Shown here piece by piece: positions 3,740 through 7,276 of a stretch of DNA of 20,038 nucleotides (the first letter of the stretch is position 1; each line of letters begins with the position of its first letter). The DNA lies in the IMG/VR virus record IMGVR_UViG_3300020420_000076, positions 1 to 20,038 of that record; one strand, given 5' to 3'. A program made the position numbers and the translations under genes. This stretch comes from a virus. The notes beneath the pieces were generated by a model, which was given only the letters and a program-made list of their open reading frames with translations, did not search any database and was not told where the DNA came from.

Positions 3740-4102
3740 ATGACAAAAGAATCAGACATACAAATAGCCTGTAATGACTACCTAAATTATCTGTGCAAAT
3801 ACTATCATTTTCGGCATTTCCATGTTCCAAATGAGGGTCAGAAGTCTATAGGCTATCATTTAAAGCTAAAGAAGATGGGTCTGAAGTCTGGTTGTCCAGA
3901 TATTATTATAGAATATCCAGAAGGGCGTATTCTTTATATTGAGTTGAAGAATGAAAAAGGTAGGCTGTCTGATGCTCAAAAGCTTTGGGCGGTGCAGTCT
4001 AAAGCTATGGATACACCCCATTTTATTGTGAAGGGCGGTGTAACTGAATGTTTAGACCAAGTAAAAGAAATAATTGAAATGAACGTTCCTGTGCGGTCTT
4101 AG
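3740..4102 (+). CDS. VRR-NUC domain nuclease
   Basis: 120 residues, the size of a stand-alone phage VRR-NUC protein. The PD-(D/E)xK core is visible: a helix with E4 and Q8, the strand HVPNEG (28-33), GLKSGCPDIII with the metal-binding D54, then the pair E68 and K70 in YIELK, and Q80 in RLSDAQ. Family members are structure-selective DNA nucleases, thought to act on branched replication or recombination intermediates. It is the only plus-strand gene in the window and has no clear ribosome binding site before its ATG; an in-frame TAG upstream excludes a longer version. Its 3' end meets the late block only 8 bases from the stop of the gene at 4111. Confidence 0.9.
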   Translation: MTKESDIQIACNDYLNYLCKYYHFRHFHVPNEGQKSIGYHLKLKKMGLKSGCPDIIIEYPEGRILYIELKNEKGRLSDAQKLWAVQSKAMDTPHFIVKGGVTECLDQVKEIIEMNVPVRS

Positions 4103-4110
4103 TTATTCCC

Positions 4111-4266
4111 CTAGTAGTTCACCCTTTTTATTGGTAACAGCCGTTGTACAGCCTTTAAATTGCCTTTGTAGGGCATTTTATTCTTTCTGGTGCGTTTTCT
4201 TTTTGCTCTGATAGGTCTTTTACCAATTAATTCAGAAATAGTAGCTGTGGTTGTAAACCCATTCAT
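4111..4266 (-). CDS. Small basic protein
   Basis: 51 residues, starting with an ATGA overlap on the gene upstream. A short N-terminal part (MNGFTTTATISELIGKRP) is followed by a very basic patch (IRAKRKRTRKNK, residues 19-30) and a basic helix (KAVQRLLPIKRVNY). It is the last gene of the leftward late block and is unrecognised. The basic patch suggests nucleic acid binding (inference). Confidence 0.6.
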   Translation of the reverse strand: MNGFTTTATISELIGKRPIRAKRKRTRKNKMPYKGNLKAVQRLLPIKRVNY

Positions 4267-4445
4267 TTTCCGACTTTCCGCATTGCTCTATTATGTGCTT
4301 GTGCAAACGTCTTTCCCGACTTTAAGTCTTTAGCCATTTCTTTCATATGTTTTAATGAATGATGCCTAGCATGACTGTTCATAGTCTTGCGTTGTCGGGG
4401 TGTTAAGTCTTTAGTAAACTTTTTAATAGATTTGACTAAAACCAT
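4263..4445 (-). CDS. Small basic His-rich phage protein
   Basis: 60 residues. The pattern LTPRQRKTMNSHARHHSLKHM followed by GKTFAQAHNRAMRKVGK is one I recognise from small proteins in many tailed phages, including marine ones. They share the HH-xx-KHM and G-x-xF-xxAH-xxAM-xxVGK motifs; the function is unknown to me. The protein is highly basic and helical, with no membrane segment. The start follows the stop of the upstream gene directly, and its stop overlaps the next start, so it is translated in a chain with its neighbours. Confidence 0.7.
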   Translation of the reverse strand: MVLVKSIKKFTKDLTPRQRKTMNSHARHHSLKHMKEMAKDLKSGKTFAQAHNRAMRKVGK

Positions 4446-4532
4446 TTACCGCTTTTTTCTTTTCATCTTTTTGGTTTTTTTCTTCTTCTTCATTCCCTTA
4501 GAATGTGACCCTTTTCCTGTGTGATACGGCAT
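4446..4532 (-). CDS. 28-residue lysine-rich microprotein
   Basis: The peptide begins MPYHTGKGSHSKGM and then is nearly all lysine and arginine to the end. It starts with a TAATG overlap on the upstream microprotein gene and ends directly at the start of the next, so its coding status is supported by coupling as well as by its MPYH-type start, which I recall from other phages. A protamine-like DNA or RNA binding role is the obvious guess; nothing else is visible. Confidence 0.6.
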   Translation of the reverse strand: MPYHTGKGSHSKGMKKKKKTKKMKRKKR

Positions 4533-4633
4533 TACTTCTTTCCTTTCTTTTTCTTTTTACCCTTTTTTTGACTTTTTAGAATTGCTTCCTGTAGTCCTTT
4601 TGGTAGTTTTTTTTGTTTTGGTGTTAGTGCCAT
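4532..4633 (-). CDS. 33-residue lysine-rich microprotein
   Basis: Sequence MALTPKQKKLPKGLQEAI, then a tail that is mostly lysine and glycine. It has the strongest ribosome binding site in the cluster (AAAGGGGG, 5 bases before the ATG). The N-terminal half could form one amphipathic helix. It overlaps, in another frame, the 3' part of the longer open frame at 4557-4730; the strong binding site favours this one as a true gene. Unknown function, recalled as a recurring type in marine phages. Confidence 0.65.
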   Translation of the reverse strand: MALTPKQKKLPKGLQEAILKSQKKGKKKKKGKK

Positions 4634-4730
4634 GATAACCCCCTTTGGTTTTTTGGTTCAATGATTTTTTAAGAAAATAACTAGCAATCTTTGAGAAGAA
4701 ATCATAAAGCTTCAAATATACTTTTTTCAT
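4557..4730 (-). CDS. Small protein behind the repeat element, overlapping frame
   Basis: 57 residues: an N-terminal amphipathic helix with aromatic residues (MKKVYLKLYDFFSKIASYFL) and a K/T/S-rich tail that overlaps the next microprotein in a second frame for 77 bases. The ATG follows the repeat element at 4738-4772, which carries AGGA 9 bases before it. The helix could be membrane-associating. The tail may be only a by-product of the overlap. Not recognised; whether it is expressed is uncertain. Confidence 0.4.
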   Translation of the reverse strand: MKKVYLKLYDFFSKIASYFLKKSLNQKTKGGYHGTNTKTKKTTKRTTGSNSKKSKKG

Positions 4731-4737
4731 GTCTTTA

Positions 4738-4772
4738 TATCCTGGGATTTATTCAATAAAATCAAACACTTA
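4738..4772 (-). repeat. Copy B of a roughly 36-bp two-copy leader element
   Basis: This stretch matches 15500-15535 at 31 of 36 positions (four substitutions, one single-base gap). On the minus strand it reads an AT-rich hairpin (GATTT paired with AAATC, imperfect in this copy), then CCCAGGATA, then the ATG at 4730. It overlaps the last codons of the endolysin gene. See the finding on the two copies. Confidence 0.65.
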
Positions 4773-5217
4773 TCTCAAAATGAGGACAGTCCAAAAAATA
4801 TTTTCTTTTCTGACTTTTTCTAAGGTCTATGTAAGATTCTCTAGCTTCTTCGGCTGTACCTTGCCAATCACGCAAGTCTGGCACACTCCACGCACCACCC
4901 CATTTAATCGGCACGCCTTCTTTTATTGATGCTTCTTTGAACGCATCTGCTATTTCATCATATAAATTAAGTTCCCAAGAAATTCTTGAACCAATATAAG
5001 CAACAACGTCCACCGCATCCCCTGTAAGGTGTTTGCTGTTCATTGTTTGTGAAGCACCTCTAGCCACTAATTCCTCTTGTTCTTGAATATTTCTTAGTCC
5101 ACAGGTGACTCCGAAATCGCAATTCGTCAGTCCTATGGCGGTGGTTACTACTGAATGTAATTGGTTCTTTACTCCGTCTAATCGTCCTAGACTTCTCTGT
5201 GATAATGTAAAAGCCAT
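4762..5217 (-). CDS. Endolysin, M15-type peptidase (VanY/L-alanyl-D-glutamate peptidase-like)
   Basis: 151 residues, a single catalytic domain without a cell-wall-binding domain, as is usual for phages of Gram-negative hosts. The metallopeptidase signature is complete: SKHLTGDAVD gives the zinc ligands H63 and D70, and DCPHFEI gives the third ligand H146. The region before it (CGLRNIQEQEELVARG, from residue 39) matches the start of the M15 domain. The enzyme would cut peptide bonds in peptidoglycan at lysis. There is no signal peptide, so release depends on the holin encoded just upstream. The start has an excellent AAGGAG site. Confidence 0.9.
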   Translation of the reverse strand: MAFTLSQRSLGRLDGVKNQLHSVVTTAIGLTNCDFGVTCGLRNIQEQEELVARGASQTMNSKHLTGDAVDVVAYIGSRISWELNLYDEIADAFKEASIKEGVPIKWGGAWSVPDLRDWQGTAEEARESYIDLRKSQKRKYFLDCPHFEISV

Positions 5218-5218
5218 G

Positions 5219-5683
5219 TTATGCTCCTTTTGTTTTATAATACTTGCTTACTGCTCGACTTCCAAACCAAAAACTCATAATAGACGCAAACAAACCTGCT
5301 GTCTGGTCATCCCATATTGTGTCTAATGCCATTGTCAAACCCATCCCACCATTCTGCATTAAAGCTAATAATGCTGTTACTTTGATGGCAACGAATAAGC
5401 TAAAAAAAGCATAAGTGATGATAGGACGCACGCTACCTCGTAATGCGTTAATAAAACCTCCTGCATCCACGCTATCATGTTTATATAACCCCTCTGTTTC
5501 TTTTATCTCTGCCTGTTTATCTAATTCTTTTATTTTAAGTTCTGACCTTTTAGCCATTAACTCTATTTCCATTTGCATCTTTTGCAGTTCATGCTTGTTT
5601 TCTTGTGATTTCTTAAAAAAATTTAGAATTTCTGGTAAAAAACTTGTTCCGAACCCTAACAAACTACCTAGTAAGGTCATCAT
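5219..5683 (-). CDS. 3TM-type holin
   Basis: 154 residues with the layout of the GTA_holin_3TM family. A hydrophobic N-terminal segment (4-23) is followed by a charged coiled coil (26-65). Then come a membrane span after SVRP (86-109) and a last span ending in the family hallmark FWFGSR (138-143) and a basic tail. Holins of this family pair with the downstream endolysin, here one base away. An ATGA overlap links it to the EF-hand gene upstream. The family is typical of alphaproteobacterial gene transfer agents and phages, which supports the host inference. Two ATG codons in tandem are possible starts. Confidence 0.85.
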   Translation of the reverse strand: MMTLLGSLLGFGTSFLPEILNFFKKSQENKHELQKMQMEIELMAKRSELKIKELDKQAEIKETEGLYKHDSVDAGGFINALRGSVRPIITYAFFSLFVAIKVTALLALMQNGGMGLTMALDTIWDDQTAGLFASIMSFWFGSRAVSKYYKTKGA

Positions 5684-6012
5684 TTCGGTTGTTCCCTTCT
5701 TTTTGCAAGTTGATTAAACCCTATGAAACTACCTATAACACCCATGTTACTCAATACCCAAATTTCAGCAATACCAGAAAGATGGTCTATGCGTTCAATA
5801 GGAACTATTGGGGTCATTAATACCACAATGAAAGCGGTGACTGTTATAGCTGAGAACCATACGATATAACGTTGTTGGTCTTCTTTTTTATCTCTGTTTT
5901 CCAAAAGAACCAGTTTTTCACGCATTTCAAACTCTGCATCGCTAATTATATTATCGCCATTTGCGTCTAGCTTTTCAAACTTTGAACCTTTTTCTAATTG
6001 TTTTTGTGTCAT
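5680..6012 (-). CDS. EF-hand membrane protein in the lysis block
   Basis: 110 residues from the ATG at 6012, chosen over 6042 because it makes an ATGA overlap with the upstream stop. Residues 16-27 form a canonical calcium-binding EF-hand loop: D16, N18, D20, I23 and E27 are all in place in LDANGDNIISDAEF. Then follow a charged helix (30-47), a membrane span (50-68), the connector TPIVPIERIDHLSG and a second span (81-100), with a basic C-terminus. I recall similar EF-hand plus two-span proteins in marine phages but know of no assigned role. Position directly before the holin suggests a part in lysis or its timing. The loop could be inside or outside depending on topology. Confidence 0.75.
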   Translation of the reverse strand: MTQKQLEKGSKFEKLDANGDNIISDAEFEMREKLVLLENRDKKEDQQRYIVWFSAITVTAFIVVLMTPIVPIERIDHLSGIAEIWVLSNMGVIGSFIGFNQLAKRREQPK

Positions 6013-6191
6013 TCTTTTCTCGTTACAACTTTTGGTTTGCAATATGCCGAAAACGTATTTCTAGTTTGTCTTTCATTGTAAAAATTAATCTTTTCCGCAT
6101 ACCAGTTGCATTTATCAATACTACCATATTCTATAGACTCATTATAAATTTGTGTTCCTTCAAGAATAACAAGCACGAATAACAATGTCAT
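6009..6191 (-). CDS. Small secreted or membrane-anchored protein with two cysteines
   Basis: 60 residues. A short hydrophobic start (MTLLFVLVILEG) could be a signal or anchor, though it has no positive charge before the core. The rest has just two cysteines (C28 in DKCNWYAEKI and C51 in AYCKPK), fit for one disulfide outside the cytoplasm. Both ends overlap the neighbours by ATGA. I recall this kind of protein near phage lysis genes, without function. Confidence 0.6.
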   Translation of the reverse strand: MTLLFVLVILEGTQIYNESIEYGSIDKCNWYAEKINFYNERQTRNTFSAYCKPKVVTRKE

Positions 6192-6667: not shown

Positions 6668-7073
6668 CGATAGAAATGACTTTTTCTCTAAATTGCTGTT
6701 TATCGTAAACCTCCTTTTGCCTTCTCTTACGAATGTCTGCTTCCATCCTTAAAAGCTCCTCCCAACTACTTTGTCCATGCGAAAATTGGATGAACGTCCG
6801 AAGCTCCGCCCTTTGCGATTCTAGTTGTTTTTTAGCGGTAAATGCTTCAATGGCTTCTTGTTCAATAGTTTTGCCACTCATTACCTTTTTGAGTAAAGAT
6901 GGGTTTTTCGCTGACTTATGGGCGTTATCAATGTCTGAAACCGCACCCATCCATCTTGAGAGGTCTTGCGACATAGATTCAAGCTCTCGACCCGCCATAA
7001 ATGCTCTTTTTATGCCTTGAAAAGCACTACTCGCTACGCTTAAACTGGCGGTGATACTTATAGGGTCAAACAT
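6570..7073 (-). CDS. Coiled-coil membrane protein of marine phages, unknown role
   Basis: 167 residues. An N-terminal FDPISITASLSVASSAFQG hydrophobic stretch is followed by long charged helices (25-130). These contain the motif LSRWMGAVSDID (38-49) and W104 in QSSWEELLRMEADIRKRRQ. One membrane span lies at 132-157, with a short tail. I recall proteins with this motif order next to fibre and lysis genes in environmental marine phages; no role is established to my knowledge. The start has a run of seven G as its ribosome binding site. Its last 98 bases overlap the signal peptide region of the next gene in another frame. Confidence 0.7.
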   Translation of the reverse strand: MFDPISITASLSVASSAFQGIKRAFMAGRELESMSQDLSRWMGAVSDIDNAHKSAKNPSLLKKVMSGKTIEQEAIEAFTAKKQLESQRAELRTFIQFSHGQSSWEELLRMEADIRKRRQKEVYDKQQFREKVISIVVIIIVCSVGIGLLGLFIYSLMGLDRGWWLSD

Positions 7074-7096
7074 TTAGAACCCCCCCTGTATCCCAT

Positions 7097-7276
7097 TTAT
7101 AGAACTATAGTGTTAAAGATAACCCCGAATGAACTAATGACATAAAAGGCTGTAATGGAAATAACTATTCTTTCGAGTCTGGAAACCCTACGTTCCATGT
7201 CTTGTCTAAAGTGGTACATATCGTTTTTTAGAACACTTAGTTCCATGAGTATTGCACTTATGTCTTGTTTGGTCAT
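7097..7276 (-). CDS. Small coiled-coil plus single-span protein (XhlA-like layout)
   Basis: 59 residues. Residues 1-36 form an amphipathic heptad helix (MTKQDISAILMELSVLKNDM, then RQDMERRVSRLERI), residues 37-59 a single hydrophobic span that ends the protein. This is the layout of XhlA-type haemolysin/holin accessory proteins, but sequence identity to that family is not evident. It begins with a TAATG overlap on the upstream gene. A place at the border of fibre and lysis genes fits a lysis-accessory role (inference). Confidence 0.6.
   Translation of the reverse strand: MTKQDISAILMELSVLKNDMYHFRQDMERRVSRLERIVISITAFYVISSFGVIFNTIVL

Follow-up and report, generated by a model that had tools for sequence, protein, structure and literature searches.

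Four of the five small frames between the endolysin and nuclease genes of the window, O2 to O5, are clearly real coding genes and are common to many marine phages. Late nucleic-acid binding in genome packaging or condensation is the role that fits these four best, because in other marine phages the relatives of O4 adjoin genes for the head and for packaging; we propose it as a tentative reading of evidence that is comparative throughout.

A chain of tiny basic genes

The window is the whole stretch analysed, the 20,038-base virus record IMGVR_UViG_3300020420_000076, which is a fragment. Judged from its 1001-residue tail protein, 40-52% identical to those of the Pelagibacter phages HTVC026P, 202P, 111P and 112P, the window virus is kin of these siphophages, and its host is therefore probably Pelagibacter or a relative. 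The chain and the genes around it are as follows.

O1: 4557-4730, minus strand, 57 aa; amphipathic aromatic first half (about 32 residues, 4633-4730) and a basic tail out of frame with O2
O2: 4532-4633, minus strand, 33 aa; LTPKQKKLPKGLQEAI head and lysine tail, preceded by AAAGGGGG
O3: 4446-4532, minus strand, 28 aa; MPYH head and lysine tail
O4: 4263-4445, minus strand, 60 aa; His-rich, basic, predicted four-helix mini-protein
O5: 4111-4266, minus strand, 51 aa; GFTTTATISELI head and RAKRKRTRK patch
M15-type endolysin: 4762-5217, minus strand, just upstream of the chain; phrog_465 (4.9e-50), PF13539 (1.5e-6)
Holin-like membrane protein: 5219-5683, minus strand, upstream of the endolysin; phrog_6637 (unknown function, 5.4e-28), phrog_3427 (holin, 0.087)
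VRR-NUC nuclease: 3740-4102, plus strand, convergent, bounding the chain; PF08774 (1.2e-7)

A holin function for the 5219-5683 product is suggested by its position and by weak matches. The five coupled minus-strand frames are present as the sequence-only reading had claimed, and its account of their joints was borne out: O2 and O3 share a TAATG, O4 and O5 share an ATGA, and O3 is in direct contact with O4 (TAA then ATG). O1 and O2 overlap out of frame by 77 nt. The very strong binding site that it noticed is AAAGGGGG, the strong ribosome site of the chain, ahead of O2, and O2 and O3 do consist, as it described them, of a short head with a poly-lysine tail. The net charges of O1 to O5 are +16, +13, +14, +14 and +14, with 28-50% K + R; by inspection the chain is lysine-rich, and mean hydrophobicity is low in O2, O3 and O5. 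The polybasic frames of the window are concentrated in this chain. Pfam profiles gave nothing for O1 to O5 except a chance match of O5 (E 0.19), and O1, O2, O3 and O5 had no match in PHROGs.

The lone plus-strand VRR-NUC gene stands amid minus-strand genes and ends 8 bases from the O5 stop; its terminator-like hairpin (4161-4175) falls within O5, and its cluster was found in 73 of the 168 loci examined. A promoter or terminator of the chain's own is not supported, as the counts of such signals lie inside the shuffle range (5 against a mean of 4.4, s.d. 1.9, and 2 against a mean of 1.1, s.d. 1.0). The product of the minus-strand frame 5680-6042 is small and membrane-like and weakly matches an EF-hand profile, below the cut-off (PF13202, 0.0073).

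The 620 bases from 4111 to 4730 were shuffled with their dinucleotides preserved, and qualifying frames (ATG start, at least 25 aa, net charge at least +9) were counted. Five are observed, and none of 2000 shuffles reached five (mean 0.31, maximum 3). Among viral contigs, 99 relatives of O4 were confirmed, of which the best 80 were kept; with the window they make a near set of 81 loci, all with O4 by construction. The frames are conserved in these relatives: O3 is present in 72 of the 81 loci, O5 in 78 and O2 in 54. The same chain, O2-O3-O4-O5, recurs in this order, with nearly fixed junctions: O3 ends exactly at the O4 start in 60 of 72 loci and overlaps it by one base in the other 12, and O5 starts at +179 in 66 of 78.

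Selection acts on the proteins. For pairs 2-25% apart, pN/pS is 0.12 for O2, 0.14 for O3, 0.15 for O4, 0.23 for O5 and 0.51 for O1. In same-length sets of O2 to O5, pN/pS is 0.07-0.33 in the true frame and 0.64-2.97 in the two shifted frames, where every value exceeds 1 except that of the 51-aa O5 at shift 2; 49-81% of the changes in these four genes are at third codon positions. Chance frames could be suspected in a stretch whose coding strand is A-rich, lysine codons being AAA and AAG, and this explanation does hold for the tail of O1. For O2 to O5 it is ruled out by the shuffles and the in-frame pN/pS, and for the chain as a whole we regard it as extremely improbable.

Properties of O1, O4 and O5

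The earlier picture of a basic gene holds for each of O2 to O5 and needs a correction for O1. The first 32 codons of O1 have a pN/pS of 0.31 (9 distinct sequences), and the part overlapping O2 has 1.42 (13 distinct sequences), so selection does not preserve the basic tail at the protein level; the tail is a by-product of the overlapping O2. In four relatives (L049, L070, L075 and L080) the O1 head is fused in frame to O2. A sequence pattern recognised O1 in at least 29 of the 81 loci, a count that is too low because the pattern missed some members, that of the window included. The first half of O1 is amphipathic (hydrophobic moment 0.53) and may have a membrane-active role. In some relatives, a 93-aa gene lies just above the chain (4428-4709 in L075; cluster 29, with members in 14 loci). 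It has an aromatic amphipathic start like that of O1 and a CxxC motif, and is possibly a paralogue.

An AlphaFold2 model of O4 from 58 sequences (pLDDT 95.5, pTM 0.79) has four helices, and O4 is accordingly predicted to be a compact, well-folded four-helix domain. Fourteen columns are invariant in the 58 sequences: Q18, H25, H28, H29, S30, K32, H33, M34, M37, G44, F47, H51, A54 and G59; when positions are counted from the motif, a one-residue insertion in three sequences shifts the last four of them. The invariance from H28 to M34 is partly due to selection of the sequences, since these positions lie within the motif used to find distant members; the other eight columns are independent of it. 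The spacing of the histidines at i, i+4 and i+8 (25, 29 and 33), together with H51 on the last helix, suggests a metal site.

No match of O4 in the PDB clearly rose above noise (best Foldseek E 1.7; best VIA-align Z 5.2, r.m.s.d. 2.8, 59 residues aligned). Its weak neighbours include the leaderless bacteriocins aureocin A53 (Z 3.4) and epidermicin (Z 2.6), both within noise. In a structure search of a viral library A0A516LMB1 alone passed 0.001 (5.6e-4). O4 belongs to phrog_31838, a 51-residue phage profile of unknown function, which the window protein matches over positions 3-51 of 51 (1e-4) and its HTVC111P relative at 0.0019; the relative in Hodr (7.5e-14) and the alignment bridge the two. 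Two further PHROGs matches are weak (0.063 and 0.097). Unlike the profile, O4 carries an extra 9 residues at its N terminus and keeps a fixed chain of partners. For O5, an AlphaFold2 run with 13 sequences gave no confident fold (pLDDT 58.4), and the protein models as disordered.

Genomic settings of the O4 relatives

Relatives of O4 are viral and nearly absent from cellular genomes. A wider pattern search of viral contigs gave at least 600 stretches and at least 532 confirmed relatives, 80 of which were kept. A search of 84,980 cellular genomes gave five candidate stretches and one confirmed relative; it comes from a single-cell contig of Pelagibacteraceae, where portal-, scaffold- and capsid-like genes surround it. 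In a set of 50,697 annotated phage records O4 has three matches: HTVC111P, Hodr (E 0.003) and cyanophage P-SCSP2 (E 0.2), the last accepted because it shares the invariant columns. In P-SCSP2 the relative lies between the scaffold and major capsid genes with DUF5872 and DUF6321 proteins; in Hodr it is accompanied by a DUF6321 protein and stands between genes resembling those of the small and large terminase.

The distant set of 81 loci was reduced to 79 when two (L091 and L092) were dropped, in which the frame is longer and no O4 below 130 aa could be called. Within 3 kb of O4, head or packaging clusters occur in 30 of the 79 loci, lysis clusters in 19, both in none and neither in 30. When each distinct O4 protein is counted once, the figures are 22, 14 and 26 (neither) of 62. 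The labels cover chosen clusters, named from scanned representatives and the rest by reading; c11 (unknown function) was left out, and 'neither' takes in unlabelled genes and short contigs. A missing neighbour means little, since the contigs are fragments. Among the near relatives, lysis genes adjoin the cassette in 70 of 80 loci, neither type in 10 and head genes in none; unrelated endolysins, of M15 or lysozyme type, stand above the same cassette.

The four Pelagibacter isolates all have a run of tiny basic frames after the endolysin, several of them without annotation. These are O2- and O3-like in 026P, O3- and O5-like in 202P, O3- and O4-like in 111P and of other basic types in 112P. Polybasic frames of the isolates are concentrated in this place and at a spot before the terminase: a second small basic gene pair lies just upstream of the terminase gene (7040-7189 and 7622-7894 in L086, and the same place in L087-L089), and one gene of the pair, when tested, had no Pfam match.

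The cassette is shuffled among marine phages, remaining basic and viral as its neighbours change. Another basic family lies within 1.5 kb of O4 in 67 of the 79 distant loci; DUF6321-like proteins are found in 40, DUF5872-like proteins in 38 and the YPSAYAN family in 30, all counts being approximate as the motifs are loose. DUF6321, DUF5872 and DUF5824 (PF19846, PF19197 and PF19141) are tiny basic marine-virus proteins that share cassettes with O4 relatives. O1 to O5 differ from them in sequence, with no match to the three Pfam profiles at E up to 1, and the window contains none of them. DUF6321 was found by tblastn in 212 of the 50,697 phage records, mostly from phages of cyanobacteria and Pelagibacter; in HTVC010P it lies downstream of an M15 gene. 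Roseobacter phage CRP-823 has a DUF5824-like protein between its portal and capsid genes (E 1.7e-4, below the Pfam cut-off), and in HMO-2011 a relative of the basic partner of Hodr lies near lysozyme, terminase and portal genes. The 461-aa, lysine-rich cyanomyophage protein gp160 of P-SSM4 (T4-GC119; 3062-4447 in L172) looks like several small basic proteins fused: DUF6321 (1.5e-22) follows stretches that by eye resemble DUF5872, which Pfam did not confirm, and the GYHYMPDG family. T4-GC119 is named a hypothetical protein in the available text of PMC3037559, and that of PMC12085832 gives no function for DUF5872. The limited set of literature searched contained no description of these families or of small basic proteins in marine phages, nor virion data for the carrier phages.

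These positions bear on function. If O2 to O5 act in packaging, this shuffled cassette would supply strongly basic proteins that attach to nucleic acid electrostatically and, late in infection, help to fill the head or condense the genome. O2, O3 and O5 would be flexible polycations, and O4 a compact, basic module of four helices, in which a metal ion may be held by the conserved histidines. In the lineage of the window, the cassette directly follows the lysis genes, a position that would put it last in the late block; other marine phages have it between the scaffold and major capsid genes or by the terminase. The head-gene settings are predicted by such a late nucleic-acid-binding role and are not predicted by a dedicated lysis role for O2 to O5. 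Against packaging, the window's own group adjoins lysis genes and never head genes, and 30 of the 79 distant loci have neither.

The lysis setting of that group raises the possibility, which we consider rather unlikely, that one or more of the peptides, most probably O1, break the outer membrane after the endolysin in the manner of cationic disruptins, in phages without recognised spanins and with O2 to O5 assisting. The chain directly follows the holin and endolysin genes in the 70 near loci, the O1 head is amphipathic, and the bacteriocins are among the neighbours of O4, within noise. In the window, itself a fragment, and the four isolates, one simple lipobox pattern found no spanin-like lipoprotein beside the endolysin. 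Identifiable spanins are missing in 13% of the tailed phages of Gram-negative hosts, and the phiKT disruptin is a short amphipathic antimicrobial-like peptide (PMC12819732, in part). However, 30 of the 79 distant loci adjoin head or packaging genes and none of these 30 adjoins lysis genes, which is evidence against a purely lytic role; O2, O3 and O5 are of low hydrophobicity and bear no evident resemblance by eye, as O4 bears none, to phiKT gp28, and O1 was recognised in a minority of loci by the incomplete pattern. The minus-strand frame 1716-2027 of the window codes for a 103-aa predicted lipoprotein (lipobox GGC), distant from the lysis genes, not an obvious spanin, and with its cluster in 57 of the 168 examined loci.

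Two further roles were weighed against packaging. The peptides could remain unpackaged and, inside the infected cell, bind to the DNA, RNA or ribosomes of the host. Many phage takeover proteins are small, and charge alone suits any nucleic acid; yet the genes are placed with late genes (head, terminase and lysis) and not in an early block, and we judge host takeover to be a shade less probable than help in lysis. Less probable again would be a role as assembly factors, in which the basic proteins bind an acidic scaffold or the capsid interior and aid assembly of the shell or filling of the head but do not condense DNA. Scaffold clusters often lie close by (22 matches within 3 kb over the 79 distant loci), and the scaffold-like proteins of these settings carry an acidic net charge (-28 to -37 in L144, L153 and L170), but the cassette is not near scaffold genes in the group of the window or in the 19 distant loci with lysis genes.

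Known systems and significance

The sequence-only reading had offered protamine-like, RNA-binding, anti-host and membrane-active roles and chosen none of them. Small basic proteins condense DNA in other dsDNA viruses, as do the core proteins of adenovirus and P6.9 of baculovirus, according to the available parts of PMC3281028 and PMC6163548. The proteins of the chain are likewise small polycations of dsDNA viruses suited to charge neutralization; at 28-60 aa, net +13 to +16 and 28-50% K + R, they are small and strongly basic. The known examples, as described there, are arginine-rich and belong to eukaryotic viruses, whereas the chain is lysine-rich, with several proteins per genome. Nucleic-acid binding in packaging survives as the best fit for O2 to O5; in structure the likeness to protamines fails for O4, which is predicted to be folded, whereas O5 is not.

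For phages, the same part of PMC3281028 states that evidence is lacking for any large contribution of basic proteins to the neutralization of dsDNA, dense packing leaving little room. In the available P-SS2 virion proteome (PMC2784084), the five small detected proteins that were translated are acidic, and bases 1-45000 of P-SS2 contain no motif of these families; the proteome is therefore neutral for the packaging reading, since the families are absent from those bases. Disruptin gp28 of coliphage phiKT, as presented in part in PMC12819732, is a short cationic amphipathic peptide beside an endolysin, as in the chain; O1 is like it in kind only.

Pelagibacter and cyanobacteria, whose phages carry these genes again and again, are among the commonest marine hosts; the smallest of the genes are often left without annotation, and the literature searched gave no function for any of them. 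The cultured isolates HTVC026P, 111P and 202P make the questions of condensation and of a disruptin directly testable. If O1 is a disruptin, it would show how some marine phages open the outer membrane without spanins. A bolder extension of the packaging reading, which we likewise consider rather unlikely, is that exchangeable tiny polycations, several per genome, give many abundant marine tailed phages a chromatin-like, protein-condensed genome core or easier head filling, with O4 as a new metal-binding four-helix DNA-binding fold. Such a core, if real, would contradict the view that small cations and polyamines alone neutralize the DNA of tailed phages, and if the proteins condense DNA in the virion, the general statement on how tailed phages pack their genomes would change.
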